Shown here: one piece after another, positions 206-15,227 of the stretch
Layout: the number at the start of each line of letters is the position of its first letter
How positions within the stretch are numbered: the stretch's first letter is position 1
Translations under genes and position numbers: made by a program
From: Saprospiraceae bacterium
GTDB lineage: Bacteria > Bacteroidota > Bacteroidia > Chitinophagales > Saprospiraceae
Direction of reading: 5' to 3'
NCBI GenBank assembly: GCA_020631235.1
Contig: JAHDHQ010000021.1
Location: forward strand, 1-64,000
Length of the DNA: 64,000 nt
The notes under the pieces: model-generated
The model's input: only the letters and a program-made list of their open reading frames with translations
The model's database searches: none
What the model was told of the DNA's origin: nothing

Positions 206-3200
206 ATGAAAGAGCCATTCGAATCTGTATTTAATGATATTGAGTTTCAAAAAAACTTACTGGTTTTAGCTGAAAAACTCAATACTCCTATACAAGAAGT
301 AAAAGCAAGTGCTTCTGAAGCTCTTAAAGAAATGTTTACGGTTCAGCATCCTATATTACAAACTATGGGAGTGCAATTAGCAGAATTTATAGTGGATCGA
401 GCGTATGAGAAAATCATCGACGTAAATATTTCTGAACTCAAGGTTTTAACAAAAATGATGCGCAGTCATTCGATAGCCTTCGTAATGACACATAAAACAT
501 ACATTGATATGTTTGTTTTAGGCATTACGCTAGCTAGACATGGCTTAAAAATCCCATTCATTTTTGCAGGAGCAAATATGGCTTTTGCCGGATTAGGGCA
601 GTTAGGCAGAAAAGCCGGGGCCATTTTTATCCGTAGGTCTTTTAAAGAAGATGAAATATACAAAGCTACTTTACGCCACTTTATTGCTCATTTAGTCCAG
701 TCTAGAGAACACTTTATGTGGGCCTTAGAAGGATCTAGAAGTAGAACAGGTAAACTCATCTGGCCAAAAATGGGTATCCTTAAATACATCCATGAAGCAG
801 AAAAGCAATCAAATGCTCAGGTTAAGTATGTTCCTGTTTCGATTGTATATGATCTGATACCTGATGTCGAAGACATGACTCTAGAAGGCAGAGGCAAGCT
901 AAAGAAAAGTGAAAGCTTAAGTTGGTTTCTTAATTATGTGCGTAAAATGGGAGAAGATCATGGGAAAATCTCTTTAAGGATAGGCGATCCCGTGGATTTT
1001 AATGAAATCGAACATGCTGTAGTACCTACGGAACAAAATTCTAGTCGGCCTTCCATTTCTAAATTTGCATTCGAATTAGCTTATGGTATAAATCATATTA
1101 CTCCAGTGACCACCGTAAGTTTAATTTGCACCGCTTTACTAAGCAAGTTTGCATTAACTAAAAGGAGCACAGAAGCTATAGTTCTTGAACTCATGCAAAT
1201 CATAGCGGCTCATCATCCGGATGCACTGGTCGATAAAGGCACTAATTTATCGGAAAAAATACAGCGAGCATTAAACTTAATGCTGAAAGGAAAGCTTATT
1301 CAGTTGGTGGGCGATGGAGTAAATGCCAAGTATTCTATCGTGCCGGAAAACTTTTTGAAGGCAAACTATTTTGCTAACATGGCTACGCACCATCTGTATC
1401 AACGTGCCTTTATAGAGTTAGCTATCGCAAAGCTTATTCAAGTTCGTTCGAAGGATCCTTTGTTGTTTTTTTGGCAGGAAATTATGGCCATTCGAGATTT
1501 ATTTAAATTAGAATTCTTTTATGCTAATAAATCCACATTTACAGATCAAATCGAACACCAAATGACAAGTATTCATCCTGAATGGATGAATATGATCACT
1601 GAAGATCCGAAACGATTAAAATCATTAATCTCAAGCCAAAAAATCTTTGTATCTCAAGTCTTATTAAAAACACTAATCGAAGCATACAAAATTGTGGCTT
1701 ACAGCTTAAAAAGCTTGGAGCCCAATAGAACTTATGATGATAAACAACTCATGCGTACGTGCTTGTTTTACGGAGAAGAGCTGCATTGGAAAGGAAAAAT
1801 ACATCGCTTAGAATCAGTGTCTAAACCGTTTATACATAATGGACTAAGACTAGCAAAAAATAGAGACTTAATACCCAGGAAGAATAAGAAAAAAACAAAG
1901 GAAATCAATTTGTGGTTAGCTGAGCTGGATGATTACACCTTGCGGATGGAACAACTGATGGATTTCTTTGCTGTGAGCCCTACATTAATGTCCGCTCAAG
2001 GGCCTACAGATTATGCCATTCCTGGATCTCCGCATGCTGATGTAGCTAAAACTATACTAGAGGGAGAAGAGGGTCCACACATTGCTGCATTCTTTGACTT
2101 AGATAGAACTTTAATCTCAGGGTTCTCGGCTAAAGTCTTTATCAAAGAACGTATCAAAAGTGGCAAAATGACGCCTAAGGAAATGGCGGCTCAGTTCCAA
2201 GGAGGTTTAGTTTATGCGCTTGGGAATAAGAATTTTGCTGGACTTGCTGCACTGAGTGCAAAAGGAGTAAAAGGCTTAGCCGAGAAAAATTTAATCGACT
2301 TAGGTGAGGAAGTTTACCTGAAGCACTTATCTAAAGCCATATACCCACAATCAAGAGCATTAGTCGAAGCACACATGGCTAAAGGACATACAGTAGCCAT
2401 TGTTTCTGCCGCTACTCCATATCAAGTCGAACCAGCATCCAGAGACTTAGGAATCGAACACGTCATGTGCACAAGAATGGAGGTACAAGAAGGTAAGTTT
2501 ACAGGAGATATTGTAGAACCGGCTTGTTGGGGACAAGGTAAAGCTATTTTAGGAGAGCGTTTTGCTAAGAAAAACAACATTGATCTACAAAAAAGTTATT
2601 TCTATACTGACAGTTATGAAGATCTGCCTCTATTAGAAATCGTAGGTCATCCTAAGGCAGTTAACCCAGATAAAGAACTGACGAGCTTAGCCATGGAAAA
2701 CGAATGGTCTATTTATCGTTTCAATGATCACGGCAGACCTAATATCACAAATGTTTTCAGGACTGGCATGACGCTCAGTTCGGTCGGCCCGGCTGTGATG
2801 TCCGGTTTATTGAGTGGTATACTATCTCGAGATTGGAATAAAGGTACTAATTCGATGATGGCAATGATTGGAGATTTAGGCACATGGGTGGCAGGGATGA
2901 AGTTAGTTGTGAAAGGTGAAGAAAACATCTGGAAATCAAGACCTGCTGTTTTTATTTTTAATCATCAGAGTAATGTAGATCTGCTGATATTAGCAAAACT
3001 ACTCAGAAAGAATGCTGTCGGGATAGCCAAGAAAGAACTGCAATACACTCCTTTAGGACCCGTTTTTAAGGCTGCTGGAATGATATTCATAGATCGATCC
3101 AATAAAGAAAAGGCGATCCAAGCCATGAAGCCTGCTGTAGAAGCATTAAAAAACGGCACCTCCATTGGTTTGGCGCCAGAAGGGACTCGCAGCTACGATT

Positions 3201-3442
3201 ATACTCTTGGTACGTTTAAGAAAGGTGCCTTCCATTTAGCCATGCAGGCTAAGGTGCCTCTTGTTCCAATCGTCATCAAAAATGCCCACGATGCCATGCC
3301 ACGTGGATCCAGTGTGATCAGCCCTGCTGTAGTGGAAGTAAGTGTCTTAAAACCCATACCAACAAGTCGTTGGAAGCGTGATGATTTGGATAAGAACATA
3401 GCTAAAGTTAGAGCTAAATTTCTTAAAGAATTGGATCAATAA
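206..3442 (+). CDS. GPAT-HAD phosphatase-LPLAT three-domain fusion
   Basis: This 1078-residue protein combines three enzyme domains of glycerolipid synthesis. Residues about 85-290 form a PlsB-like glycerol-3-phosphate acyltransferase with H96-x4-D101, FIRR at 141-144, EGSRSRTGK at 175-183 and VPVSIVYD at 209-216. Residues about 625-815 form a HAD-IB (SerB-like) hydrolase with D631-L-D633-R-T635, S734, K779 and D802/D806. Residues about 900-1050 form a PlsC-like lysophosphatidate acyltransferase with H920-x4-D925, the FIDRS block at 961-965 and PEGTRS at 991-996. In mycobacteria the same activities are split between PlsB2 (Rv2482c) and the HAD-PlsC protein Rv2483c. Here all motifs are intact in one chain. 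The HAD domain could dephosphorylate phosphatidate to diacylglycerol, but that is inference. The gene converges on the WS/DGAT gene with 9 bases between the stops. No signal peptide is visible. Confidence 0.85.
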   Translation: MKEPFESVFNDIEFQKNLLVLAEKLNTPIQEVKASASEALKEMFTVQHPILQTMGVQLAEFIVDRAYEKIIDVNISELKVLTKMMRSHSIAFVMTHKTYIDMFVLGITLARHGLKIPFIFAGANMAFAGLGQLGRKAGAIFIRRSFKEDEIYKATLRHFIAHLVQSREHFMWALEGSRSRTGKLIWPKMGILKYIHEAEKQSNAQVKYVPVSIVYDLIPDVEDMTLEGRGKLKKSESLSWFLNYVRKMGEDHGKISLRIGDPVDFNEIEHAVVPTEQNSSRPSISKFAFELAYGINHITPVTTVSLICTALLSKFALTKRSTEAIVLELMQIIAAHHPDALVDKGTNLSEKIQRALNLMLKGKLIQLVGDGVNAKYSIVPENFLKANYFANMATHHLYQRAFIELAIAKLIQVRSKDPLLFFWQEIMAIRDLFKLEFFYANKSTFTDQIEHQMTSIHPEWMNMITEDPKRLKSLISSQKIFVSQVLLKTLIEAYKIVAYSLKSLEPNRTYDDKQLMRTCLFYGEELHWKGKIHRLESVSKPFIHNGLRLAKNRDLIPRKNKKKTKEINLWLAELDDYTLRMEQLMDFFAVSPTLMSAQGPTDYAIPGSPHADVAKTILEGEEGPHIAAFFDLDRTLISGFSAKVFIKERIKSGKMTPKEMAAQFQGGLVYALGNKNFAGLAALSAKGVKGLAEKNLIDLGEEVYLKHLSKAIYPQSRALVEAHMAKGHTVAIVSAATPYQVEPASRDLGIEHVMCTRMEVQEGKFTGDIVEPACWGQGKAILGERFAKKNNIDLQKSYFYTDSYEDLPLLEIVGHPKAVNPDKELTSLAMENEWSIYRFNDHGRPNITNVFRTGMTLSSVGPAVMSGLLSGILSRDWNKGTNSMMAMIGDLGTWVAGMKLVVKGEENIWKSRPAVFIFNHQSNVDLLILAKLLRKNAVGIAKKELQYTPLGPVFKAAGMIFIDRSNKEKAIQAMKPAVEALKNGTSIGLAPEGTRSYDYTLGTFKKGAFHLAMQAKVPLVPIVIKNAHDAMPRGSSVISPAVVEVSVLKPIPTSRWKRDDLDKNIAKVRAKFLKELDQ

Positions 3443-3451
3443 AGCTGAGCT

Positions 3452-5287
3452 TTATGTATAAGCAGGAAGCTGATTAAGTATCGAAGCTAATTTCATCCCG
3501 ATGGCGGCATCACCATCTAATTTTAGTCTTCCTTGAACAAAAGCTACTTGAAGGTTCAACTTTTTTCGCGCTATTTGGAGTAAATGTTTTTCTTTAAGGT
3601 GTACGGTTACATCCGCTTTCTTGGATATACCTTTTCTAACACTTCCCGGAGCCTTGGTAAGGTTTAATTGATAGTGGATAGTATTAGCTCCTTCTACATG
3701 AAACTGGAAAAGACCGATGGGTTTTTTTAGGAAAGTTGGTTCGTCTTTTAAGAACTTTCTTACAAATTCGAAAAATGCTTCGGTTTCTGATTTTTCTGCT
3801 TTGGTTTTGGCAGCTGCTTTGGATTTCTTAGAAGGCTTGCCAGTTTTTTCATACTTTAAAATATCTGCTTCTAAAGCATTAGCTTCCTCAAGGATATAAT
3901 CAGAAAACACGTCAAGATCAGGCATTGACTTTACATCGGAAGTAGGGCTGATGGTAATGTTTCCATTATAGCTTAAGATGGTGATGATTAGGCCCATCCC
4001 GTCAATTATCGGAGCCATGCCCATGATGGAATGCATCTTGTTTCCATGTAGATAAATCGGTAATTGAGGCCCAGGAACATTGGTAATAACTACATTAAAA
4101 ATCGGCTTATGCAATTTTGCCAAATTAAATCTAGAGTACAATCTTGCCGCTTGATTAGCTACACCGAAAGGCACAGCCTCTGCAATGTTAGATAGTGATT
4201 TAGCACCCATGGCGCCTTGATAAGTTTTACCTTTTATGGTGTTATCAAAAATAGTTTCTAAACGTTCGATTCGATCATCAATATTGGTGGCTAATTGCAC
4301 CAGCATGGCCGATAAATTATTGCCACCTTCACTGGCATCTTTCTTGGCTGTAGAAATAGGCACCATGGCCACTAATGGCTTTCTCGGCAATTTCTTTTTT
4401 TCTTCTAGATACTTTTTTAATGCCCCGGCACAGATGGCTAAAATCACATCATTTAAGGTCGTTCCCATGATGTTTTTTAATTTCTTTACCCGTTCCAAAG
4501 ACAGGATAGTAGTGTTCCATTTTCGCTGCGCTGATATTATACCGTTTAAAGGTGTTTTAGGTGCGCTAAATGGGGCAGTAGGTAAATCAAGATGTTGAGC
4601 TCTGGTCATAAAACCGGCCTTCAAGGTTGAGAGAACGGTGTCTTTGACTAGATTTGGAAATTTTAATGGCTTCTGTGCAAAACTCAAAGTACTTTTTGCA
4701 ATCAGTGCTAACTCATTAGGCAGTGGAGCGGGATTAAAAGGTCTAGGCTCTTTAATGGGTCCAGGATCTGGTCCTAAATCAAACATTATGCCCAGCAGAC
4801 CTGCACCACCGACACCATCAATAGCCACATGATGAATTTTCGAAATAATGGCTACAGAGCCAGGTTTAACTTGGGATAATTTATCTAAACCTTCTACAAA
4901 GGTAAAGGACCAAAGTGGTCTTGACTTATCTAAAGGTTCACTAAAAATTTTAGAAGCAAGTTTCCGAAGATTTTTCCAGCTGCCTGGTTTTGGAAGGGCA
5001 ATATGATCGATGTGCATATCGATGTTGAAATCTGGGTCATCTACCCAATACGGATGATCGATGCTAAATGGCACCTTCATCAAACGTTGCCTCAGTTTTG
5101 GAATTTGATGTATTCGCGAACTGATGGTTTGCTTAAAGGATTCAAAATCCAAAGTCCCTTCGATAACAGCTACTGCTCCTAGGTGCATAGGACTTGTCGG
5201 TGTTTCTACGTACAAAAAAGTAGAATCCATGCCACTGATAGGTTTGATTCCAGTGGTATCGAATTGGTCAAAAATTGAATCTTTCAA
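3452..5287 (-). CDS. WS/DGAT acyltransferase with C-terminal SCP2 domain
   Basis: A 611-residue wax ester synthase/diacylglycerol acyltransferase, expected to acylate diacylglycerol or a fatty alcohol from acyl-CoA at the membrane/lipid-droplet surface. The catalytic HHVAIDG motif is at 152-158. PLW (124-126), NDVILA (279-284) and NVPGP (403-407) are further family blocks. After a Lys/Ala-rich linker (about 481-500), residues about 505-608 resemble an SCP2 sterol/lipid-transfer domain. Typical family members have about 450-500 residues, so this tail is extra. Translation appears to begin at TTG 12 bases after the lipase stop codon. The next ATG would be residue 20 and would cut into the conserved N-terminus (MDSTFLYVET). 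It is cotranscribed with the upstream lipase-like gene. Choice of substrate (wax ester or triacylglycerol) cannot be read from sequence. Confidence 0.88.
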   Translation of the reverse strand: MKDSIFDQFDTTGIKPISGMDSTFLYVETPTSPMHLGAVAVIEGTLDFESFKQTISSRIHQIPKLRQRLMKVPFSIDHPYWVDDPDFNIDMHIDHIALPKPGSWKNLRKLASKIFSEPLDKSRPLWSFTFVEGLDKLSQVKPGSVAIISKIHHVAIDGVGGAGLLGIMFDLGPDPGPIKEPRPFNPAPLPNELALIAKSTLSFAQKPLKFPNLVKDTVLSTLKAGFMTRAQHLDLPTAPFSAPKTPLNGIISAQRKWNTTILSLERVKKLKNIMGTTLNDVILAICAGALKKYLEEKKKLPRKPLVAMVPISTAKKDASEGGNNLSAMLVQLATNIDDRIERLETIFDNTIKGKTYQGAMGAKSLSNIAEAVPFGVANQAARLYSRFNLAKLHKPIFNVVITNVPGPQLPIYLHGNKMHSIMGMAPIIDGMGLIITILSYNGNITISPTSDVKSMPDLDVFSDYILEEANALEADILKYEKTGKPSKKSKAAAKTKAEKSETEAFFEFVRKFLKDEPTFLKKPIGLFQFHVEGANTIHYQLNLTKAPGSVRKGISKKADVTVHLKEKHLLQIARKKLNLQVAFVQGRLKLDGDAAIGMKLASILNQLPAYT

Positions 5288-5299
5288 ATGTTTATGTTT

Positions 5300-6085
5300 T
5301 TAATGGGCTTCCGCTCTTATTAATAAATCTTCAAGCAAATTGCTGGTTTCAAAATACTCCCAATTGGCTTTTTCGTAGCTTAAACGATCAGCAATGATTT
5401 GTAAAACTAATGGGTTTACTCCTAGTCCTAAATGACTGCCTCTCACTTGGATGTTTTGGTGCCATTCGTCTTCTTCTTCCATGCATAATTCCCAAGGAAC
5501 TACGCCATCCTCTTTACTAAAAATAGCTGTTGTAGGAACGGGCGCTGCATGTGGAATATCATCGATAACCTCTGGGTCAATTTCTTCGGTAACTATCTTA
5601 CTCTTTTTTAAAAGATCATACATCCAGATGGCATTATTTGCATGATAGAGGCCTTTAAAAGGGGAACCCATAACAATTAGTTGGCGCACTATAGCTGGAC
5701 TTTCCTTGGCTAATTGTCGGGCATAAATTCCGCCTAAACTCCAACCTATAATGGTAATAGGTTCTTTATGTTTTTGATAAATACGGTCTACTTTTTGGCT
5801 GAGCATCTCCACATAATCACCATGAGCAAAGTTTCTGCCTTCTCCCCAGCCATATACTTTATAACCCAGTTTGTGGATAAAGCTTCTCAAAGGTATAGTG
5901 GAGTAATCAGAAGCCATAAAACCGGGTAAAATCAGTACAGGGTGTCCATCTCCAACTCCCTCTAGTTTATTAAAAAATCGGTAAGGAAAATACCAGCCGA
6001 GTTCCATCATGGCTCGGACGCCTTCGGTCAATCCCCAAGCAAGCGCGGGTTTTTTTATTTCTTCTATTGCGTAATCCTCTATCAT
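5300..6085 (-). CDS. Alpha/beta hydrolase, lipase-like
   Basis: A 261-residue alpha/beta-hydrolase with nucleophile elbow GWSLGG (114-119, Ser116), probable acid Asp193 (SKEDG) and His218 (GSHLG), so the catalytic triad is complete. The oxyanion-type strand LILPGF is at 51-56. No signal peptide is seen, so it should act in the cytoplasm. It sits 12 bases upstream of the WS/DGAT gene on the same strand, which suggests a role in turnover or remodelling of neutral lipids. That role is inferred from context; the fold and triad are seen directly. The ATG start lies downstream of a terminator that separates it from the phasin-like genes. Confidence 0.75.
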   Translation of the reverse strand: MIEDYAIEEIKKPALAWGLTEGVRAMMELGWYFPYRFFNKLEGVGDGHPVLILPGFMASDYSTIPLRSFIHKLGYKVYGWGEGRNFAHGDYVEMLSQKVDRIYQKHKEPITIIGWSLGGIYARQLAKESPAIVRQLIVMGSPFKGLYHANNAIWMYDLLKKSKIVTEEIDPEVIDDIPHAAPVPTTAIFSKEDGVVPWELCMEEEDEWHQNIQVRGSHLGLGVNPLVLQIIADRLSYEKANWEYFETSNLLEDLLIRAEAH

Positions 6086-6161
6086 TCAGCAAGATTGGTT
6101 AAAAAATCTTAGGCCTATAAAATGCTATTATAACTAATATAAGTCACTAGACAAAATAAAG

Positions 6162-6196
6162 AAGAGTCAAAATACACTGGGTACATTGACTCTTTT
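6162..6196 (-). terminator. Intrinsic terminator after the phasin-like genes
   Basis: A 9-bp perfect stem (6162-6170 pairing with 6186-6194) has a 15-base loop. On the minus strand it is followed by a T-rich stretch. It lies just past the 89-residue phasin-like gene and would end that transcript before the lipase-WS/DGAT unit. Confidence 0.65.
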
Positions 6197-6216
6197 CTTT
6201 TACGTGATTTGAAGGC

Positions 6217-6486
6217 TTAATTACTCGTTCTTTGTCTAAAGTTTTTTTGACCTTTAATCCATTGTTTTTTCAATGTTTCTAAGGCTTTAAAAGTGATGTC
6301 AGCTTGTGTTTCTGCCAACTTGAATCCGCCTTTAATTGCTTTTTCTGCAACCATTTGCCAAGCTGCTGTTCTATCTAAAGTTTCATCAACTACTAATTGT
6401 GTAGTATCTATGATGAAGTCATTTACTTTTTTTGTTGATTGCTTGATTGTTTTTAGATCAACTTTCTTTGTGCTTTTAGTAGCCAT
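6217..6486 (-). CDS. Small phasin-like granule protein
   Basis: An 89-residue, mostly helical protein. Its core (residues about 18-85) aligns by eye with residues about 23-91 of the next upstream protein: both have a KKVN-xx-ID start, a long amphipathic helix and a similar QxxF end. It starts MATK, like its neighbour, and has no basic tail, so it looks like a tail-less paralogue. Phasins coat polyester or neutral-lipid inclusions. The presence of WS/DGAT and absence of a PHA synthase nearby favour lipid droplets. The gene is 28 bases after its neighbour in one transcript. Family assignment is by pattern only. Confidence 0.6.
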   Translation of the reverse strand: MATKSTKKVDLKTIKQSTKKVNDFIIDTTQLVVDETLDRTAAWQMVAEKAIKGGFKLAETQADITFKALETLKKQWIKGQKNFRQRTSN

Positions 6487-6514
6487 ATCTATCTATCTTT
6501 TGGTCGTTATCTAA

Positions 6515-7261
6515 TTATTTAGTTGCCACTGCTTTTTTAGCAGTTGCGACAGTTTTATTTGCCGTTCTTTTAGCTGCTGTTGTTGTTTTAGTGGTTCTTT
6601 TAGTCGCTGTTTTAGTTACTTTTTTTGCCGTCGTTTTAGCTTTCCTTACTGTAGCTTTTACTGCTTTTGGAGCTGTTTTACGAGTTCCTGCTTTTGTTGT
6701 TTTTGCTACTGATTTTTTAGCGCCTGCTTTGACGGTTCTAGCTGTTTTGCTTGCAGTGGCTTTGGCAGCAGTAGCTTGCGGCTTGATGGTTTTTACAACA
6801 GCATCTTTTACAGCACTTACTGATAATTCTGTTCCGATGTTTTTCTCTACAACCTTTTTGATTGATTGGATGGCTTTAGTTGAGGTTTTAGAAACATCCT
6901 CCATGCTGTCTTCTACTTTTTCAGAAACGGTCTTAACCATTTCGCCAAGTTTCGCACTTGCTTGATCTACTTGTTTAGTTATGCCTAATAACTTTTGGAA
7001 TCTTTGGCTGTTGTTCTGAATTTGTTCGATGGCCATTTCTGCTGTATCAAACAATAACTCTACTTGCTTTTCGATGATTGGCTCGGATTTGTTGATGGCT
7101 TTAATCGCCATTTTCTGATATTTTGTGCCTGTAGTTACTGTTCCTTCGATCATATCTTCCGCTAGGTCGATCACCATGCAGTTTACTTTTTTTACAGTCT
7201 GTAACACTTGATTCTTTCTTTGCTGTACGTTTGTTTTTCTTGTTGCGGTCTTAGTTGCCAT
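6515..7261 (-). CDS. Phasin-like protein with histone H1-like C-terminal tail
   Basis: A 248-residue protein in two parts. Residues about 20-150 are amphipathic helix/coiled coil of phasin type. Residues 154-248 are built of Lys, Ala and Thr with about 29 Lys/Arg and no acidic residue, with KKxxAK and TKKxxK-like repeats. Phasins with basic tails (PhaF of Pseudomonas, PhaM of Ralstonia) and the actinobacterial droplet protein MLDS tie storage granules to DNA, so the same may hold here. That function is inference. A TAnnTTTG box lies about 52 bases before the ATG. The repetitive tail produces a long antisense open frame that is not a gene. Confidence 0.7.
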   Translation of the reverse strand: MATKTATRKTNVQQRKNQVLQTVKKVNCMVIDLAEDMIEGTVTTGTKYQKMAIKAINKSEPIIEKQVELLFDTAEMAIEQIQNNSQRFQKLLGITKQVDQASAKLGEMVKTVSEKVEDSMEDVSKTSTKAIQSIKKVVEKNIGTELSVSAVKDAVVKTIKPQATAAKATASKTARTVKAGAKKSVAKTTKAGTRKTAPKAVKATVRKAKTTAKKVTKTATKRTTKTTTAAKRTANKTVATAKKAVATK

Positions 7262-7312
7262 AATATCTAAGTTGTATGTATTTATTTAACTGATGGTGCA
7301 AAGAAAAGAAGT

Positions 7313-7320
7313 CAAAGTTA
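7313..7320 (-). promoter_or_regulatory. -7 promoter box of the phasin-like operon
   Basis: TAACTTTG on the minus strand matches the Bacteroidota -7 consensus TAnnTTTG and lies 52 bases upstream of the phasin-like ATG. No clear -33 TTG at the usual 19-21 base spacing was found. Confidence 0.45.
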
Positions 7321-7383
7321 CAACTGAGTTACAAGCCAGTTATAGATAGGAAGCAGGGTTATTAGTCTCTTAGATTAGGCGTT

Positions 7384-8187
7384 TTAGGTAGTTTTTATGC
7401 GCTTGTATAATAGACTAGTTGCAGGTAATGGTTCAATGCCGAACTCTTTATCTAAAACCTGTTTGCATTTATCAAAGCATCTCATGGCTTGCGGGCGATT
7501 TCCATTAGCCATATGAGCCTTCATCTGAATACGGTAAGCTTCTTCCCAGGTTGGATCAATGTTTAATGCCTCTTCAGTTAGTCTGATACTTTCATTAGCC
7601 TGTTCTTGCAAGAGTAGTTCTGATAAACTCACGTAGGCATTGAGGGCCAGTAATTGTAGATGATCCCTTTCGCTTGAGGTCCAGTCTTCATAAATTCGAT
7701 TGGGTAGAAATATTCCTTGATAAAGTCTAACCGCTTCTTGATAAGCCAAAATAGCTAATTCATCAGCTTGTCCTATGACATTATTAGCCAGCTCCACTAA
7801 TGATTTAAACACTTGGCTATCTAGCCAGATATTTTCCATATTGAGTTTGTAGGAAGAACCCTGTCGTTGAATGTATTTTGCTGTTGTTTTTGATGAGCCT
7901 TTAGGCTCTAAGATCTTCTTTATTTCATGCAGCGCAACTTTAAAATGTTGGTCAGTACCTTTTTCTTCCCAAAGTCTATCGATAATGACTTCTTTGTGGA
8001 GCGCCATTCGATTGCGCGAAATCACAAAAAACTGAAATAATTGAATGGCCTTATCACGACCCCAATTGTCAGAAATTTCTTGATGATCAAGAGTGATATT
8101 GAATCTTCCTAAGGTATAAACATGCAGTAGGGCCTCATGCTTAGCATTTAATAATTTTTCGATATGTGTTTCGTCAAAGCTTTTCAA
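7384..8187 (-). CDS. BTAD/SARP-type transcriptional regulator
   Basis: A 267-residue protein with an N-terminal winged-helix DNA-binding domain (about 18-110, including the YTLGRFNI strand and a KVALHEIKKILEP helix) followed by a bacterial transcriptional activation domain of TPR type (about 115-265). There is no receiver or ATPase domain. It begins with TTG inside a TTGA overlap with the stop of the upstream gene, which suggests translational coupling. Position beside the phasin-like genes makes it a candidate regulator of the storage locus; this is inference. Confidence 0.75.
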   Translation of the reverse strand: MKSFDETHIEKLLNAKHEALLHVYTLGRFNITLDHQEISDNWGRDKAIQLFQFFVISRNRMALHKEVIIDRLWEEKGTDQHFKVALHEIKKILEPKGSSKTTAKYIQRQGSSYKLNMENIWLDSQVFKSLVELANNVIGQADELAILAYQEAVRLYQGIFLPNRIYEDWTSSERDHLQLLALNAYVSLSELLLQEQANESIRLTEEALNIDPTWEEAYRIQMKAHMANGNRPQAMRCFDKCKQVLDKEFGIEPLPATSLLYKRIKTT

Positions 8188-8699
8188 GACTTACCCAGCT
8201 TACGATCTATTTTATCTACTTTCTTTTGTAGTGTTCCCACCAGATTTGTCAATTGTGAAATTTGGTTTGACAATTCATGAATGTCTGATTTTGAAGTAGG
8301 TTTATAGGATTCAAGTTGAAGTCTATTAGATAAATCTTCAGCTTTTGAGGTGATTTGTTCTTGTATTTGAAGTACTTGTCCTTTTGGGTCTTTGATGACA
8401 TCCGCCACCATTTTTGGATAACTTTTGGCTAGTTTTTTCCATATGTCCATACTTTTCATGAGGATGCCCTCTTTATCCTTTGGACTCATATCTTCCTCCA
8501 TGGAAGACATAGTCAGTTCTGATAATTTTCCTTGAATAAAATCAATGACATCTTTTAATTCACTAAAGTTCTTTTGATCGTTATCTTGCACATGAGTGAT
8601 TTTTCCTCTCCATTGTAGGTCTGTATTCCCTTTTTCGTCCTCGTATATTTTCTGGGTAAAACGCAATAAAAAAGAGGCCGTCTGATCGTTTTTACTCAT
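8184..8699 (-). CDS. Coiled-coil protein, possible granule-associated PhaE/phasin-like
   Basis: A 171-residue protein of unknown function. Residues about 8-55 form a small beta-rich module (FLLRFTQ, WRGKITHVQ, FIQGKL). Residues about 60-115 are helical. Residues 138-168 form a predicted coiled coil with regular Leu/Val heptads (ELSNQISQL to KVDKIDRKL). The C-terminal layout recalls PHA synthase subunit PhaE and granule regulators, but no family match can be claimed. It is the first gene of the unit with the BTAD regulator, overlapping it by four bases. No signal peptide or membrane segment is visible. Confidence 0.6.
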   Translation of the reverse strand: MSKNDQTASFLLRFTQKIYEDEKGNTDLQWRGKITHVQDNDQKNFSELKDVIDFIQGKLSELTMSSMEEDMSPKDKEGILMKSMDIWKKLAKSYPKMVADVIKDPKGQVLQIQEQITSKAEDLSNRLQLESYKPTSKSDIHELSNQISQLTNLVGTLQKKVDKIDRKLGKS

Positions 8700-9255: not shown

Positions 9256-10317
9256 TTATCTTGTGTTATCGACTGGCTTTTTATTTAATTCAAGGATAGT
9301 TTCAAATTCATTTTCATTTTCACTTATTATTAAGTTGTAATTATTACCATAAAATAAATTAAGCCTTAATCTCAAATTTTTCAGTCCAATATTATTTGAG
9401 TTAATGTCTTGATTAGTTGAAATGGTATTACTTGTCTTGAATATGATGGTTTCACCGTTTCGGCTCAATTCAAAAATTATAGGCGTTTTGTTTTTTTGGC
9501 TGACACCATACTTAAAAGCATTTTCAACTAATACAATCAAACTTAGAGGAAGTACTTTGTTTGCACCATCTGTAGTATCACAGTTAAATATTATTGGGTA
9601 GTCCTTACCTAAACGTATCTTTTGGATCGAGATATAATTATTGATGAACTTGACTTCTTCTGCAATGGTTGCAGCTTGAGTTGAATCTTGGTTAATAGGG
9701 TAGCGCATGATCTCCGAAAGTGTCACCATTGCCTCTGCGGTTTCTTGAGCATTTTCTTCTATGGCTTTTGAGTAAAGGCTGTTCAAAGTATTGTATAAAA
9801 AGTGAGGGCTAAATTGATTCTTCAAATATTTCATCTCAGCTTCTTTTTGTTTTTCCATAGCCTTTTGTTTGGAAGAGGCATTTCGAAAGGCCAACTTTGC
9901 GATTCCAACTGTGCCACTCACTATGATGGTCATCAAACCAAATTGAATGAAATAATCTAAATATTCTTTCCGATCTATTGGGAATTTGTAGTCGAGAGAA
10001 ACGATGAAATCATGTAAGAATACTGCAAAATAGATGAAGACAATAATACTGACAATTAAGGCTATGCTGTAAGTAATCCATTGTCCTTTGTATAGAAACT
10101 TGGGTATAAGGTATAACAGATTACAATAGAATATTATGATGCATAAAGGAAGAAATAATAGGGCTTCATCAAATCTCGAATCTTTTGTAAATACCAAATG
10201 TTCGACAGAATGATATAAGCCACTTAAATCAAAAATAAATTGTATTGCAAAAAGCCAAAAGATTAGATGAAAGAAGACTTCTGTGAAGCTGATATTTTTG
10301 ACTGCATTGTAAAGCAT
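9256..10317 (-). CDS. LytS/YehU-type sensor histidine kinase
   Basis: A membrane histidine kinase of the His_kinase/HATPase family that pairs with LytTR regulators. Several hydrophobic segments fill the first 145 residues. The phosphoacceptor block QFSPHFLYNT has its His at residue 172, and the N box LVENAFKYG is near 263-271. The ATG at 10317 is preferred over an upstream TTG at 10356, because it gives a normal N-terminus. It is the last of four minus-strand genes whose first member is the LytTR response regulator. Two secreted lipoproteins lie between the two signalling genes, which suggests they form one regulatory unit. The stimulus is unknown. Confidence 0.85.
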   Translation of the reverse strand: MLYNAVKNISFTEVFFHLIFWLFAIQFIFDLSGLYHSVEHLVFTKDSRFDEALLFLPLCIIIFYCNLLYLIPKFLYKGQWITYSIALIVSIIVFIYFAVFLHDFIVSLDYKFPIDRKEYLDYFIQFGLMTIIVSGTVGIAKLAFRNASSKQKAMEKQKEAEMKYLKNQFSPHFLYNTLNSLYSKAIEENAQETAEAMVTLSEIMRYPINQDSTQAATIAEEVKFINNYISIQKIRLGKDYPIIFNCDTTDGANKVLPLSLIVLVENAFKYGVSQKNKTPIIFELSRNGETIIFKTSNTISTNQDINSNNIGLKNLRLRLNLFYGNNYNLIISENENEFETILELNKKPVDNTR

Positions 10318-10423
10318 GGCATCAAGATACCAAATAATTAAAAACACAAACTCCAAATGGATATGGAGCTTGTGTTATTTTACTTTTGCTTATAATGATG
10401 CTCATCTCAACATAGCTAAATAA

Positions 10424-11095
10424 TTAAAGGGAAACTTTTATTGTTTTCACCAATGCGTAACCATCACTTGTATTTCCAGTCAATGTATCAGCCAAATTTG
10501 CATTTGATACAATCCCGTCATTTGAGTTGTTGGTGTCAGCATTGCCATTATAACCAGTCTCTGCATATACCGTATTAGAAATATCTTCAGACCAGGATAC
10601 TTGTGTGATCAAAAGAGAACTTCCTGTGCTGCTTTTTATTTCTACATGTATATGTGGAGTACGCCCTGGATACCATCCTGGAAAAATGCTGATGAAAGAT
10701 GCATTACCATTTGAATCCGAAGTTTGTCTGCCTCTTAGGAAATTCTCACTCGTGAAATTTCCATCTAGCTGACCATCATATTGAGAGTAATTTCCTTGAG
10801 CATCGCAATGCCAAATATCAACCAAAGCACCTTCAAGGGGATTACAATTGTCATTCGTGTTTTGAATATTGAAAGTAATCATCAAAGGAATTCCAGTCCT
10901 GTCTCCAATGATGTTTTCCCTCACATAGTCAGCAGGTGTTTTGATTGGAAAAGGCCCAGCAGTTTCTTCAGCTGATTCGGCACAAGCGGCTGGGTCAAAA
11001 TCATCTTCCTTTCTACATGATGTCATTAGAGTGGGAATAGCAATGATTGTGCTTAATCCAATTGCACTGTTTTTTAAGAATTTTTTTCTATCCAT
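10424..11095 (-). CDS. Secreted intradiol ring-cleavage dioxygenase-like lipoprotein
   Basis: A 223-residue protein with an export signal ending in a lipobox-like MTSC, so a lipoprotein is expected. The residues after Cys (RKEDD) fit the Lys-acidic surface-export signal described in Bacteroidota. The mature part has the intradiol dioxygenase fold: the AETAGPFP entry motif, DIWHCD...NYSQY with one Tyr, and FPGWYPGRTPHIHVE with Tyr plus two His. These are the four non-haem iron(III) ligands. Catechol dioxygenases are normally cytoplasmic. Extracytoplasmic members of this fold are known but poorly understood, so the substrate is open. Confidence 0.8.
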   Translation of the reverse strand: MDRKKFLKNSAIGLSTIIAIPTLMTSCRKEDDFDPAACAESAEETAGPFPIKTPADYVRENIIGDRTGIPLMITFNIQNTNDNCNPLEGALVDIWHCDAQGNYSQYDGQLDGNFTSENFLRGRQTSDSNGNASFISIFPGWYPGRTPHIHVEIKSSTGSSLLITQVSWSEDISNTVYAETGYNGNADTNNSNDGIVSNANLADTLTGNTSDGYALVKTIKVSL

Positions 11096-11148
11096 TTTCT
11101 TTAGTTTATTATTAAAGTGATTGTTTGCCGAAGAAGTATATAAACTTT

Positions 11149-11994
11149 CTACCTCATATAAGTTCCATCTGGAACAACTGTTGGCATTTTATACAGGGGA
11201 TTTATGAGTAGACTAAAGATTGCTTGATCCGTATTTTCAACTAGCTCTCTTGTATTCAGTTTCCATTCATGACCTATTTCATTAAGTCTAGTTTCTTGAG
11301 CTCCCAGCATTGAAGTCAGGGCCCAGTAAAGATATTCGATTGTCTGGCAACTAGCATAATCGCAAGTGCTATCAGTGTACGTATACCAAGCATCATCAGG
11401 ATATGACGAAGGAATCGTGAGAAATTGACCTCCTCTTGCTATGTCCATCGCGTTTGCCAATTCCGAACCTTGATTTTGGCCAAAAGCATCTGGATATGCA
11501 TGCGAATGTCCAGCATTATTTATGATATGCAGTACTTCTTCTAAGGAAGCATCAAAATGTCCTGTTAAACCACTTGAAATGTAGTTGGGATTAGTTTCAT
11601 CGTTTCCTAGATCCTGACCAAGTCTTCCTGCTGGTGGTTCAATATCATTCAAATCATTCTCTGAACTCCACATTACCATGAAAGCTCTATTTTCCAACAT
11701 CTTGTCCAAAACCATCTGGTCATCTACGACTCCATCTTCATCATTGTCTAGGTACTGTGCCATTACATTGGCTGCATGTAGAAGTTTTGTGTCTTCAACT
11801 CCCGCTACAGCATATATGTCTATGCCAAGAACAACTACTTTCTTATTGAAGCTAGGAAAGTCAGCATCTGTATTTGATTCTATTGTGAAGTTCGGATCGT
11901 TTCCAGGCAGTACGGGCGCATTAACACCTTCTTCTTTGCTGCATGATGATAACAAAAGAATTGATAGGATTGTTATTAACTTGAATATGTTCAT
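11149..11994 (-). CDS. Uncharacterised surface lipoprotein with EF-hand-like loop
   Basis: A 281-residue protein with a lipoprotein signal (LLLSSC) followed by SKEE, which resembles the surface lipoprotein export signal. A DNDEDGVVDD loop near 82-91 looks like a calcium-binding EF-hand or dockerin-type loop. EEVLHIINNAGHSH, near 153-166, is rich in possible metal ligands (Glu, His, His, His) and recalls metallopeptidase or hydrolase sites, but it is not a standard HExxH. No family can be named. It lies between the LytTR regulator and the dioxygenase-like lipoprotein on the same strand. Confidence 0.65.
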   Translation of the reverse strand: MNIFKLITILSILLLSSCSKEEGVNAPVLPGNDPNFTIESNTDADFPSFNKKVVVLGIDIYAVAGVEDTKLLHAANVMAQYLDNDEDGVVDDQMVLDKMLENRAFMVMWSSENDLNDIEPPAGRLGQDLGNDETNPNYISSGLTGHFDASLEEVLHIINNAGHSHAYPDAFGQNQGSELANAMDIARGGQFLTIPSSYPDDAWYTYTDSTCDYASCQTIEYLYWALTSMLGAQETRLNEIGHEWKLNTRELVENTDQAIFSLLINPLYKMPTVVPDGTYMR

Positions 11995-12129
11995 GATATA
12001 AATTTTAAGGTGAAGAATAGATACACCTTAGTAACTGCCAAGATAAGTATGACTATTGTGTGAAGAGTTATATCTTAAGTTAAACTGGATAAAGTGTAGA
12101 CAAATAAGAAAAAGTGTAGACCAAGGCTG

Positions 12130-12819
12130 TCAATCACCAAGATGTTCTTTCAGTGCTTTTGAATAAGTGGTCCCTATTGGTATAGCATTATTATTGATAA
12201 ATATTTGTCCTTTCTGATAAGAACTTATTTTTTTAATAGCTATGATGTAAGATCTATGAATTCTCAAAAAGAGTGTAGCGGGTAGTTTTCCTTCGATGCC
12301 TTTTAGATTTAATCTAGTCATGAACATACCTTTTGAGGTAAATATTTTTACATAGTCTTTGAGTCCTTCAATATATTCAATATCTGAATAATTAATTTTG
12401 ACGTTCTTGTAGTCCACTTTTATTAAAAGCTTACCTTGGTCTGATTGTGGTTGGTTACTTTTAGTCAGATTAAATAGGTGTCCTGCTTTATTTGCTGCTT
12501 TTAGAAATCGCTCATATCTTATAGGTTTCACAAGATAGTCTAGGACATCCATTTCATATCCTTGTAGTGCATATTGTTCGTATGCAGTAGTAAGAATCAC
12601 CATGGGTTTATTCTTTAGAGACTTGAGTAAGTCAACACCATTTATATCAGGCATTTCTATGTCTAGAAACAAGAGATCAATAGAATTGGTATTTAGTAAT
12701 TCTATACCTTCGAAGGCATTCGTGGTACAGCGTTCAAGTTTTAAAAAAGATGTCCTCATGACGAAGTTCGTCAACACTTTAACCGCTGGTTCTTCATCAT
12801 CAATTATTAGTGTTCTCAT
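12130..12819 (-). CDS. LytTR-family response regulator
   Basis: A 229-residue response regulator. Residues 1-115 are a receiver domain with acidic residues D7/D8, the phosphoacceptor D53 (FLDIEMPD), T78 (LTTAYE) and K97 (VKPI). Residues about 130-228 are a LytTR DNA-binding domain (IEYIEGLKDYVKI, RIHRSYII). It is the expected partner of the histidine kinase three genes downstream on the same strand. Confidence 0.9.
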   Translation of the reverse strand: MRTLIIDDEEPAVKVLTNFVMRTSFLKLERCTTNAFEGIELLNTNSIDLLFLDIEMPDINGVDLLKSLKNKPMVILTTAYEQYALQGYEMDVLDYLVKPIRYERFLKAANKAGHLFNLTKSNQPQSDQGKLLIKVDYKNVKINYSDIEYIEGLKDYVKIFTSKGMFMTRLNLKGIEGKLPATLFLRIHRSYIIAIKKISSYQKGQIFINNNAIPIGTTYSKALKEHLGD

Positions 12820-12883
12820 CTATTTATTTTTTTGCTAGTCGATAACAAGTAGTACTCAGTAGATAACCATAAAGCCCAATATT

Positions 12884-12909
12884 AAAAAAGGCGCTCAATA
12901 AAAAGCGCC
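12884..12909 (-). terminator. Intrinsic terminator of the prolyl oligopeptidase gene
   Basis: GGCGCT (12890-12895) pairs with AGCGCC (12904-12909) over an 8-base loop. On the minus strand the hairpin is followed by six T (12889-12884). It lies about 115 bases beyond the peptidase stop, so the heptad repeat array lies inside the predicted 3' untranslated region. Confidence 0.75.
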
Positions 12910-12926
12910 CCTCAATTATTTCTAAA

Positions 12927-12980
12927 TACTTAGTACTTAGTACTAAGTACTAAGTACTAAGTACTAAGTACCAAGTACCA
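12927..12980. repeat. 7-bp tandem repeat array with a 30-bp perfect palindrome
   Basis: Seven full heptads and a partial eighth: TACTTAG x2, TACTAAG x4, TACCAAG x1, then TACCA. TACTTAG is the reverse complement of CTAAGTA, so bases 12927-12956 are a perfect 30-bp palindrome. The array lies between a stop codon and its terminator. The same heptad types recur near 16.4 kb. Confidence 0.9.
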
Positions 12981-13023
12981 CCTCGACGAACCTTTGGGTG
13001 TCGAAGGATTGAATACAAAAAGC

Positions 13024-15195
13024 CTAAAGACTTTTCACACCCATATTATACAGCGCGAAAGCCCATATATCCGCATATTGCTCGATCGTCTTAGAAACAG
13101 GTGTTCCTGCACCATGACCGGCATTGGTCTCTATTCTTATCATCACTGGATTATCACCTACATGTTTGTCTTGTAACTCCGCCGCATATTTAAACGAATG
13201 CGCAGGTACCACTCGATCATCATGGTCTCCCGTAGTGACTAATGTTGCGGGATAAGATACACCTTGTTGCACTGTGTGTACGGGCGAGTAGCCTAATAAG
13301 TATTTAAACATTTCTTCTGACTGGTCGGCAGTACCATAATCATAAGCCCATCCTGCACCTGCTGTGAAGGTGTGGTAACGCAACATATCCATCACACCTA
13401 CGGCTGGTAAAGCTACCTTGAATAAATCTGGCCGCTGAGTACTGCACGCACCGACTAATAAACCACCATTAGAACCTCCTTGAATACCTAAATAATCACT
13501 GCTGGTATATTGATTCGCAATCAGGTATTCGGCGGCAGCAATAAAGTCATCGAATACATTTTGTTTTTTCATCTGGGTGCCCTGGTTGTGCCAGTCTTTG
13601 CCGTATTCGCCACCACCTCTTAAGTTAGCTACTGCGAAAATTCCGCCTTGCTCCATCCATACTGATCTTGTAATACTGAATCTAGGTGTTAGGCTGATAT
13701 TAAAGCCACCATAACCATATAAAATGGTTGGGTTTTTGCCGTCTAGTTCGATCCCTTTTTTATACGTGATGATCATAGGTATTTTAGTACCATCTTTTGA
13801 TTCGTAAAATACTTGCTTGGACTCGAACATGTCTCCATCAAAATCAATTTCAGGCTTCCAGAAAACTTCGGATGAACCTTCATCAGCATTGAACGAATAA
13901 ATATTTCCAGGTGTATGATAATTAGTAAATGAGTAATATAATTTCTTTTGCTCTTTCTTACCACTAAAACCACCAGCTGTTCCGACACCAGGAAGTTCAA
14001 TGTCTCGAATTAACTTCCCAGCATAGTCATATTGCTTAATCTTAGAAATGGCATCTTGCATATACTCAGCGAAGATGTATCCTCCTCCAGTAGAAGGCGA
14101 AAGTACTTCTTTCGTTTCCGCAATTAGATTAGTCCAATTGCTTGTTGTGGGATTAGATGCATTGGTAGTTACTATCCGCTTGTTAGGGGCATCCAGATTA
14201 GTTACTAAATACAACTTTGGACCATCATTATCCAATAGGTAAGTGTCACTGTCAAAATTATCTACCAACGTGATTAATTTACCTGCAGGATTTTTCAGGT
14301 CTTTTAAATAAAGTTCATTTCCAGAAGTTGAATTAGAAGCGCTGATCATTAAATATCGATCGTCTTCAGTTACAGAGCCACCAACATAGCGTCGTTTATT
14401 AGCTTCATCGCCTCCAAAAATCACTTGATCTTCTGATTGCGGCGTACCTAATTTATGGTAGTATAATTTATGTTGGTCTGTTTTTGCTGATAATTCTGAA
14501 CCTTCAGGTTTATCATAGCTTGAGTAATAAAAGCCCTCGTTTCCATACCATGATAGCCCAGAGAATTTCACATCAATGATCGTATCTTCTAAAATGGTTT
14601 TATCAGCAACATTCATGATGATTACTTTTCTCCAGTCGCTACCACCTTCAGATATGGCATAGGCTAGGATAGAGCCATCTTTAGAGAAGCTTAAACCACC
14701 TAATGAGGTCGTCCCATCTTCAGAAAAGGTATTTGGGTCTAAAAATACTTCTTCACCAGTTTCCGTTTTTTCGTAAATAACGTACTGGTTCTGAAGTCCA
14801 TTATTTTTGTAGTAAAAAGTACGTTCACCTTCCTTAAAAGGCGACCCTACTTTTTCGTAATTCCATAGTTTAGTAAGTCTGTCTTTCAATGTCGATCTAA
14901 ATGGGATTTGATCTAAATAGGCAAAAGTGTGTTTGTTTTGTCTACTGACCCAATCAGCCGTTTCATCACTCATATCATCTTCTAACCATCGGTAAGGATC
15001 TTTTACTTCGGTTCCAAAATGCGAGTAAACAGTGTCACATTTCTTAGTTTCTGGGTAGTTTTTGAAAGCCATATCTTTTACTTCTACACTTGGAGGATTG
15101 GGAATGTCTGGAGGTGTTGGTGTAGTCACCGCCATTTTTTTAGAACAAGCCATAAAGCTTATACTTAGTATAAAAACTAAACTTAGGATTCTCAT
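13024..15195 (-). CDS. Secreted prolyl oligopeptidase (S9A) lipoprotein
   Basis: A 723-residue prolyl oligopeptidase that cleaves peptides after proline. The N-terminus is a lipoprotein signal (ISFMAC, then SKK), so it should sit on a membrane outside the cytoplasm. A seven-bladed propeller (about 70-445) is followed by the alpha/beta-hydrolase domain with GGSNGG (Ser575), the DHDDRVVP block (Asp659/660) and NAGHG (His694). These are the S9A triad. The ATG at 15195 is preferred to a TTG at 15204, as it gives a cleaner signal peptide. It is followed by a heptad array and then a terminator. Length is normal for the family. Confidence 0.92.
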   Translation of the reverse strand: MRILSLVFILSISFMACSKKMAVTTPTPPDIPNPPSVEVKDMAFKNYPETKKCDTVYSHFGTEVKDPYRWLEDDMSDETADWVSRQNKHTFAYLDQIPFRSTLKDRLTKLWNYEKVGSPFKEGERTFYYKNNGLQNQYVIYEKTETGEEVFLDPNTFSEDGTTSLGGLSFSKDGSILAYAISEGGSDWRKVIIMNVADKTILEDTIIDVKFSGLSWYGNEGFYYSSYDKPEGSELSAKTDQHKLYYHKLGTPQSEDQVIFGGDEANKRRYVGGSVTEDDRYLMISASNSTSGNELYLKDLKNPAGKLITLVDNFDSDTYLLDNDGPKLYLVTNLDAPNKRIVTTNASNPTTSNWTNLIAETKEVLSPSTGGGYIFAEYMQDAISKIKQYDYAGKLIRDIELPGVGTAGGFSGKKEQKKLYYSFTNYHTPGNIYSFNADEGSSEVFWKPEIDFDGDMFESKQVFYESKDGTKIPMIITYKKGIELDGKNPTILYGYGGFNISLTPRFSITRSVWMEQGGIFAVANLRGGGEYGKDWHNQGTQMKKQNVFDDFIAAAEYLIANQYTSSDYLGIQGGSNGGLLVGACSTQRPDLFKVALPAVGVMDMLRYHTFTAGAGWAYDYGTADQSEEMFKYLLGYSPVHTVQQGVSYPATLVTTGDHDDRVVPAHSFKYAAELQDKHVGDNPVMIRIETNAGHGAGTPVSKTIEQYADIWAFALYNMGVKSL

Positions 15196-15227
15196 GTTGA
15201 TCAATTTTGCCGAAAAATAGGAAAATT

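Follow-up and report, generated by a model that had tools for sequence, protein, structure and literature searches.

Seven adjacent genes at positions 206-8699 of a 64,000-nucleotide stretch of the Saprospiraceae contig JAHDHQ010000021.1 (the window, meaning the whole stretch that was analysed) probably form a dedicated triacylglycerol-droplet module, a reading to which we assign a probability of roughly 0.75. The genes encode a GPAT-HAD-LPLAT triple fusion, a WS/DGAT protein with an SCP2 domain, an alpha/beta hydrolase, a short and a long coat-like protein, a BTAD regulator and a coiled-coil protein. Linkage of these genes is conserved across species, they are largely present or absent together in the genomes of the family, the two coat-like proteins are paralogues with a basic tail on the longer one, and a conserved direct repeat (the operator) lies 5' of the coat genes. 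The initial annotation had assigned the seven genes to one storage pathway. All seven open reading frames were confirmed at their places and on their strands, and Pfam and NCBIfam bear out the enzyme and BTAD domains it had named in the fusion, WS/DGAT-SCP2, hydrolase and regulator.

Table 1 Features of the gene cluster in the window and of related loci (L numbers).
Feature	Location	Strand	Basis or predicted role
GPAT-HAD-LPLAT triple fusion, 1078 aa	206..3442	+	Pfam GPAT_C, HAD, Acyltransferase; predicted to convert glycerol-3-phosphate to diacylglycerol in one protein
WS/DGAT with C-terminal SCP2, 611 aa	3452..5287	-	Pfam and TIGR02946; predicted triacylglycerol (or wax ester) synthase
Alpha/beta hydrolase, 261 aa	5300..6085	-	Conserved triad, fold match; probable droplet lipase or esterase
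Putative terminator-like hairpin and T-rich stretch	6155..6191	-	Between coat genes and hydrolase gene
Short coat-like protein, 89 aa	6217..6486	-	Paralogous to the N-terminal domain of the longer coat-like protein
Long coat-like protein, 248 aa	6515..7261	-	Coat domain followed by a tail rich in Lys, Ala and Thr; predicted to link droplets to DNA
TTTCTTTG, candidate -7 promoter box of the coat operon	7299..7306	-	TTTG spacing; TAnnTTTG consensus as described in PMC9723704
Operator TATAACT-N4-TGTAACT-N4-TGTAACT, three heptamers, 11-bp period	7316..7344	-	Conserved direct repeat
BTAD regulator, 267 aa, small-SARP-like	7384..8187	-	BTAD 4e-19; predicted to act at the operator
Coiled-coil protein, 171 aa, conserved N-terminal segment SF..RF.Q...WRG...HVQ	8184..8699	-	Open reading frame and alignment
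Helix-hairpin-helix after the tail of the long coat paralogue	L035, L036, L039, L040, L049, L051, L052, L057, L058, L066, L084, L090		Motif
PHA operon of L082: BTAD/coiled-coil pair, then 132-aa protein, PhaE, class III PhaC, short-chain dehydrogenase, 154-aa protein, thiolase	L082, 8823-15720		PhaC by TIGR01836, 490 bits

A scan of species genomes with the WS/DGAT protein as query yielded 51 loci, 48 from Bacteroidota and three from Zhongshania, on which the window genes were placed by iterated profiles. All 48 Bacteroidota loci belong to assemblies titled as metagenome-assembled genomes, so the storage physiology has had few opportunities to show itself in culture. Fourteen of the 48 (L022-L028, L030, L031, L036, L037, L039, L048 and L052) contain all six families in the fetched DNA; in L028 the hydrolase and WS/DGAT read as a single frame across a masked stretch, and in L028 and L036 the fusion runs off the contig. 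Species differ in the order and orientation of the genes while membership is kept. In a blind clustering of the open reading frames of the Bacteroidota loci, many of which are cut by contig ends, WS/DGAT is present in 48 by construction, the hydrolase in 31, the BTAD and coiled-coil proteins in 30 each, the fusion in 29 and the coat pair in 26. No family outside the cluster occurs in more than eight loci: the glycerol-3-phosphate dehydrogenase GpsA, three distinct members of which were checked with Pfam, comes next (8/48), and the remaining families reach at most six. Five genes that adjoin the cluster in the window (9256-15204) were traced in 52 sources, the 51 loci and the window itself. They were found in 3 (kinase), 1 (dioxygenase-like), 1 (the gene at 11149), 11 (LytTR) and 7 (peptidase) of them, compared with 28 to 52 for the seven cluster genes. 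Because membership is kept while order is reshuffled and neighbouring genes rarely co-occur with the cluster, the grouping of the seven genes is beyond chance. L045 and L084 lie on one contig, as do L061 and L085. Ten loci (L041, L050, L056, L060, L061, L062, L064, L065, L067 and L068) have a WS/DGAT of the SCP2 type and yielded none of the coat, coiled-coil and BTAD genes in the DNA fetched, several of them being cut by contig ends.

We searched 150 genomes of the family, own genome included, and tabulated five of the genes. WS/DGAT-SCP2 was found in 37, the fusion in 41, the hydrolase in 46, the coiled-coil protein in 33 and the coat in 32; 27 genomes have all five and 101 have none. Among the 37 genomes with WS/DGAT-SCP2, the fusion occurs in 36, the hydrolase in 35, the coiled-coil protein in 31 and the coat in 30, while 30 of the 32 coat genomes have WS/DGAT-SCP2. 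The 37 exclude genomes in which WS/DGAT lacks SCP2 (G035, G076, G097, G099, G127 and G160) and include partial matches (G131 and G167). Fragments were scored as fusion in G120, G131, G133 and G145, a match to part of the GPAT region in G090 (126 bits) was excluded, and the hydrolase was scored at E < 1e-50 only. Individual members are missing in places: the fusion in G170 and the hydrolase in G131 and G145. Each of four genera contains one genome with the set and one free of it (g10, G142/G011; g17, G018/G147; g33, G034/G159; g69, G170/G071), although the set in G170 is the one without the fusion and G011 retains a single weak coat match (3.8e-6), which was excluded from the counts. The genes have thus largely been gained or lost together in the family, and the possibility raised in the initial annotation, that they are not neighbours in relatives, is not borne out. 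In a phylum-wide draw of 395 genomes, a few of them from the family, the coiled-coil profile matches six, own genome included, two of them weakly; WS/DGAT is found at E <= 1e-30 in three, and the two besides our own match the WS/DGAT part only. Three genomes of the family (G093, G148 and G173) carry several members of the set with WS/DGAT undetected, for which a contig gap and a loss are both possible.

The domains and motifs of the enzymes suggest a route to a stored lipid. The fusion, which scores 4e-54 for GPAT_C, 1e-31 for HAD and 2e-50 for Acyltransferase, exceeds the NCBIfam cut-offs of TIGR01490 and TIGR00530, i.e., a HAD-IB phosphatase joined to an LPAAT. Its GPAT part is PlsB-type by GPAT_C and acyltransferase motifs, with the equivalog-level PlsB models staying under their cut-offs. 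In an alignment of 15 sequences the residues of its GPAT, HAD and LPLAT motifs do not vary, and its structural relatives are PDB entries 9vuq (GPAT, 4e-38), 8e4y, 5kym and 3fvv. The 611-aa protein contains WS_DGAT_cat, WS_DGAT_C and SCP2 and scores 429 bits against TIGR02946 (cut-off 310); HHVAIDG, its HHxxxDG catalytic motif, is invariant in 14 sequences, and its structural relatives are 7nxg and 6chj, with 1c44 for the SCP2 part. The signature motifs of WS/DGAT, GPAT, HAD, LPLAT and the hydrolase are given here by their customary names. From these features, the fusion would convert glycerol-3-phosphate and acyl donors to diacylglycerol, and the WS/DGAT-SCP2 protein, judging by its family, would attach the third acyl group.

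The hydrolase is weakly classified as an alpha/beta hydrolase by Pfam and NCBIfam. Its G-x-S-x-G motif (GWSLGG), Asp193 and His218 are invariant in 15 sequences and form an intact candidate triad, and its predicted fold is of moderate confidence (mean predicted local distance difference test, pLDDT, 78.5). The best Foldseek match is Lip_vut1 (6nkc, E 1.5e-8); many other alpha/beta hydrolases score near it, and the matches span lipases, esterases, thioesterases and a polyhydroxybutyrate (PHB) depolymerase. With the nucleophile elbow, acid, histidine and fold of a serine lipase all present, the protein is probably a droplet lipase or esterase that, from its fold and position, would mobilise the stored lipid. 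Elsewhere in the family, SCP2-less WS/DGAT genes directly adjoin a hydrolase gene of the same family (contigs G035:C130, G099:C76, G127:C31, G160:C290 and G124:C56).

The WS/DGAT class is described as making both wax esters and triacylglycerol (PMC10351704, PMC6686919), but wax ester as the main product is quite unlikely here: in 36 of 37 genomes the enzyme is accompanied by the fusion, which builds glycerolipids by prediction, and GpsA is the one additional gene found in more than six of the 48 loci, annotation of the accompanying families having covered those above that number. Triacylglycerol is preferred because the fusion would supply diacylglycerol and GpsA the backbone. That the fusion is instead an ordinary membrane-lipid acyltransferase, in a cluster only loosely tied to storage, would agree with the fact that PlsY is unmatched in own genome. 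However, 109 of the 150 family genomes manage without the fusion, own genome holds a separate acyltransferase frame of 258 aa, and the fusion follows WS/DGAT in its distribution; we consider this alternative very unlikely. If the fusion acts in storage only, the first acylation of membrane lipids lacks an evident enzyme in own genome.

Over its N-terminal ~100 residues, the 248-aa protein is of one family with the 89-aa protein, and the two are paralogues. In 28 of 29 long forms the Lys/Ala/Thr-rich tail has a net positive charge (+3 to +44), and 12 of the 29 end in a helix-hairpin-helix by motif, which the window protein lacks. The Pfam family HHH_5 was found at E <= 0.1 in 10 of the 19 long members scanned (best 8.5e-8) and not in the window's own protein. 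When the coiled-coil protein and four coat domains were each set against 300 shuffles, the mean helical hydrophobic moment was larger than in 299 or all 300 of them, and this amphipathicity lends modest support to a coat role. Together, paralogy, tail and amphipathicity suggest that the short and long proteins coat the droplet. The long one may tether droplets to the nucleoid through its basic tail, aided in many relatives by the helix-hairpin-helix domain, as in PhaF and MLDS. The closest architectural parallel is Pseudomonas PhaI/PhaF, described as a jointly encoded pair of related coat proteins in which the longer member carries a basic, histone-like tail (PMC5658603). Theirs sit on polyhydroxyalkanoate (PHA) granules, whereas the pair here is likened to them by architecture and has no profile match to two PF05597-type phasins.

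At E <= 0.001, the 89-aa, 248-aa and 171-aa proteins of the window match no Pfam or NCBIfam family, and the first two have no match to the phasin models PF05597, TIGR01837 and PF09361. Among relatives, Phasin is matched by two of 18 short forms (best 0.059) and Phasin_2 by one of the 18 (best 0.01) and by four of 19 long forms (best 0.0043). PhasinPhaH (NF045508) matches 10 of the 19 long forms (best 1.8e-8), and in the three members viewed the matching stretch is the tail and helix-hairpin-helix part. Matches of the long protein to ribosomal L21, NADH dehydrogenase E (NuoE), DNA polymerase IV and PhaH likewise lie in this part in the members shown and were attributed to composition or domain sharing.

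A near-invariant direct repeat was apparent when the regions 5' of the coat pair were aligned from ten species. At no more than one mismatch, TGTAACT-N4-TGTAACT precedes all 41 testable, non-duplicate coat promoters, window included, and TTTG follows 13 nt past the operator in 40 of them (TTCG in the remaining one). From this set L128, L130 and L133 (same contigs as L029, L033 and L040) and L118, L125 and L085 were dropped as duplicates, and L053 was untestable at a contig edge; upstream distances are counted from where the profile match begins, which need not be the true start codon. TAnnTTTG is the -7 box described for a flavobacterium (PMC9723704). Over 1.06 Mb of loci, every match at <= 1 mismatch stands before a coat or coiled-coil gene except one inside the hydrolase gene of L037, and three base shuffles of the same loci gave none. 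Elsewhere in own genome, 400 kb (about one-tenth) contained no match at <= 1 mismatch and two at <= 2. At three mismatches the window itself has six sites compared with 8.9 expected, which is uninformative; the level of 0-1 mismatch alone discriminates. In L043-L046, L063 and L124 the operator also stands before the coiled-coil gene, and in L042 it lies farther upstream of that gene. In most loci, window included, it does not stand before this gene, and ten aligned regions upstream of coiled-coil genes share no invariant column. In L116 (G131:C69) a second operator-like site, with two mismatches, lies just 5' of the coat gene beside an exact one.

Operators of SARP regulators are described as heptamer direct repeats with 4-nt spacers (PMC10972967, PMC5930380), and the repeat here has this form, lies near the -35 region and stands beside a regulator gene. 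Because SARP operators share the heptamer-repeat form and the BTAD gene adjoins the operator, the neighbouring BTAD protein is likely the binder. From the operator geometry and the co-travel of the two, it would activate the coat operon through heptamer repeats just 5' of the -7 box. All 14 homologues of the regulator contain the BTAD domain. Its DNA-binding domain, which in SARPs is an OmpR-type winged helix, is weakly recognised, with Trans_reg_C at E <= 0.1 in six of the 14 (best 0.0014), and the PDB match to AfsR reaches only E 0.0084, within the BTAD part. Like the small SARPs of Streptomyces, described as an N-terminal DNA-binding region plus BTAD acting at heptamer repeats with 4-nt spacers (PMC10972967, PMC5930380), the protein is small; theirs control antibiotic clusters, whereas the candidate targets here are coat genes of a Bacteroidota storage granule. 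The coiled-coil frame overlaps the BTAD frame by 4 nt if BTAD starts at TTG. The coiled-coil protein itself has a predicted structure of low confidence (mean pLDDT 60.5), and its N-terminal segment has no library family above cut-off. Among 21 members, TIGR01837 matches six weakly (best 1.3e-4) and PF05597 five (best 0.005); matches to NPV_P10, IcmG/DotF and SKA2 were set aside as coiled-coil similarity. We envisage that it probably sits on the droplet and reports droplet state to the BTAD protein, a feedback that is speculation by analogy with Rhodococcus, where droplets are described as sequestering MLDSR (PMC5504291).

Relatives of the regulator pair occur in a different storage context. 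In L082 (genome G206, from another Bacteroidota family), a PHA operon opens with a BTAD protein 36% identical to that of the window and a coiled-coil protein that shares 29% identity with its window counterpart over 96 residues (Table 1). L083 (G301, 1384-8315) has frames of like size and order, known by size and order rather than by family scan, and in L114 (G185) BTAD, coiled-coil and hydrolase-profile matches were seen. The operator stands before the coiled-coil gene with one mismatch in L082 and L083 and two in L114, followed at the same spacing by a -7-like box (TTCG, TTCG and TTTG, respectively), and the coiled-coil N-terminal segment is common to the window-type and PHA-operon loci. An operator belonging to another regulator, e.g., a response regulator of the PhoB/OmpR type, with BTAD acting elsewhere, would fit both the weakly recognised DNA-binding domain and a published case in which one direct-repeat site can serve both the response regulator PhoP and the SARP AfsR (PMC10972967). 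This is unlikely, since the operator travels with the BTAD gene into the distant PHA operon, and its absence at <= 1 mismatch from the 400 kb of own genome speaks against a global regulator. The BTAD protein, its coiled-coil partner and the operator thus appear, from sequence comparison, to form one controller of storage granules that serves two different kinds of store. A bolder proposal, which we hold tentatively and at somewhat less than even odds, is a portable Bacteroidota granule control module. A SARP-type regulator, a granule protein as its partner and a fixed operator would be fitted to PHA granules as well as to triacylglycerol droplets. The droplets would have a coat protein that holds them to the chromosome, and their growth would be sensed and thereby linked to segregation and to the supply of coat protein.

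These operons, with the resemblance of the coat pair to PhaI/PhaF (PMC5658603), could also mean that the coat and regulator genes of the window serve PHA granules and that the lipid genes are merely adjacent. We regard this as highly improbable. The PHA synthase family PF07167 (PhaC_N) has no match in own genome, which is 98.8% complete, and the model does detect class III PhaC (E 1.5e-4 on the L082 protein). It matches 16 of the 150 family genomes, only two of them among the 32 that bear the coat, and coat and coiled-coil genes are both missing from G136, the only genome of the family in which PhaC_N matches over its full length. The coat genes instead follow WS/DGAT (30/32). Since own genome has no PHA synthase match, a PHA granule was rejected for it and a triacylglycerol droplet is favoured. 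Elsewhere, L088 (1505-2389) encodes a PhaR-type regulator and, after it, a true PF05597 phasin, which the coiled-coil profile matches weakly; L089 (8629-9530) resembles it, with a phasin 74% identical.

Several observations weigh against a dedicated droplet module. (i) The operator is absent, at <= 2 mismatches, from the <=250 bp upstream of the WS/DGAT, hydrolase, fusion and BTAD genes, which leaves the regulation of the enzyme genes unexplained. (ii) The coat is no strict requirement, because several WS/DGAT genomes lack it: G074, G124 and G133 (WS/DGAT-SCP2) and G005, G060 and G138 (more divergent WS/DGAT) have neither coat nor coiled-coil protein, and G161 lacks the coat only. (iii) The fusion is present with WS/DGAT undetected in G012, G093, G148, G164 and G173. 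(iv) PlsY (PF02660) has no match in own genome (G000), so the fusion may also make membrane lipids. (v) The tail of the long paralogue in L090 (11035-11796) is non-basic, with a net charge of -6, the sole exception among the 29. (vi) At its maximum, the helical moment of the coat domains is unremarkable, being attained by 20 to 78 of 300 shuffles. (vii) Related genomes are not independent and relatedness inflates the p-values of the joint distribution, which are descriptive only. (viii) Comparison of the pair with PF05597-type phasins by hhalign gave a probability of 0.3%, against a phasin profile of two sequences only, and the coiled-coil protein scored higher against the phasin profile (64%, E 6e-5), where coiled-coil composition and the same two-sequence profile may account for the result. 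Phasin homology of the short and long proteins, which the initial annotation had called phasin-like, was rejected on the 0.3% comparison; the name would suit the pair by its architecture only. The storage reading of that annotation is otherwise partly supported: linkage is conserved, and the lack of a PHA synthase match in own genome and the presence of GpsA in some loci favour triacylglycerol.

Part of the cluster is already known. WS/DGAT is reported in a minority of Bacteroidota genomes: one paper gives 3% (PMC10351704), and another speaks of "only a few" within the FCB group (PMC6686919). The former (2023) describes Bacteroidota WS/DGAT, some with SCP2, adjacent to an AGPAT/hydrolase gene. 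Its proteins resemble ours in length (~613 aa with a C-terminal extension), in the SCP2 domain of two of four metagenomic sequences and in the acyltransferase/hydrolase context, whereas a GPAT part, coat proteins, a regulator and an operator go unmentioned in the relevant section of that paper. Thus, the pairing of WS/DGAT-SCP2 with acyltransferase and hydrolase in Bacteroidota is not new, while the coat and control layer (paralogous pair, regulator and operator) appears to be. Among the open-access papers listed, judged by titles and abstract openings, none was found to describe coat proteins, a BTAD regulator or such an operator for neutral-lipid storage in Bacteroidota. The operator, the paralogy of the small proteins and the PHA-operon relative of the regulator pair all go beyond the initial annotation.

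In mycobacteria, plsB2, HAD-plsC and a WS/DGAT gene are neighbours (Rv2482c-Rv2484c); the same three activities are clustered here, with the first two fused. The description of MLDS and MLDSR in Rhodococcus, a droplet coat/DNA-binding protein and a regulator encoded together (PMC5504291), offers a further likeness, differing in that a BTAD protein and direct repeats are involved here. If the proposed roles hold, the cluster would be a droplet kit with a single sequence-defined promoter switch, giving testable predictions for lipid, coat and operator. It would also be a case of one granule regulator common to two chemically different stores, and would add a candidate for granule-to-nucleoid tethering to PhaF, PhaM and MLDS.

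The hairpin between the coat and hydrolase genes has a folding energy of -8 kcal/mol (z -2.0, in a slice that ended at the hairpin end), and inverted repeats resembling it were seen by eye in relatives. Past the cluster, at 9256-12819, a histidine kinase gene and the gene of a LytTR response regulator enclose two others; only in L024 and L039 do homologues of the kinase and of the regulator both fall within 10 kb of WS/DGAT.

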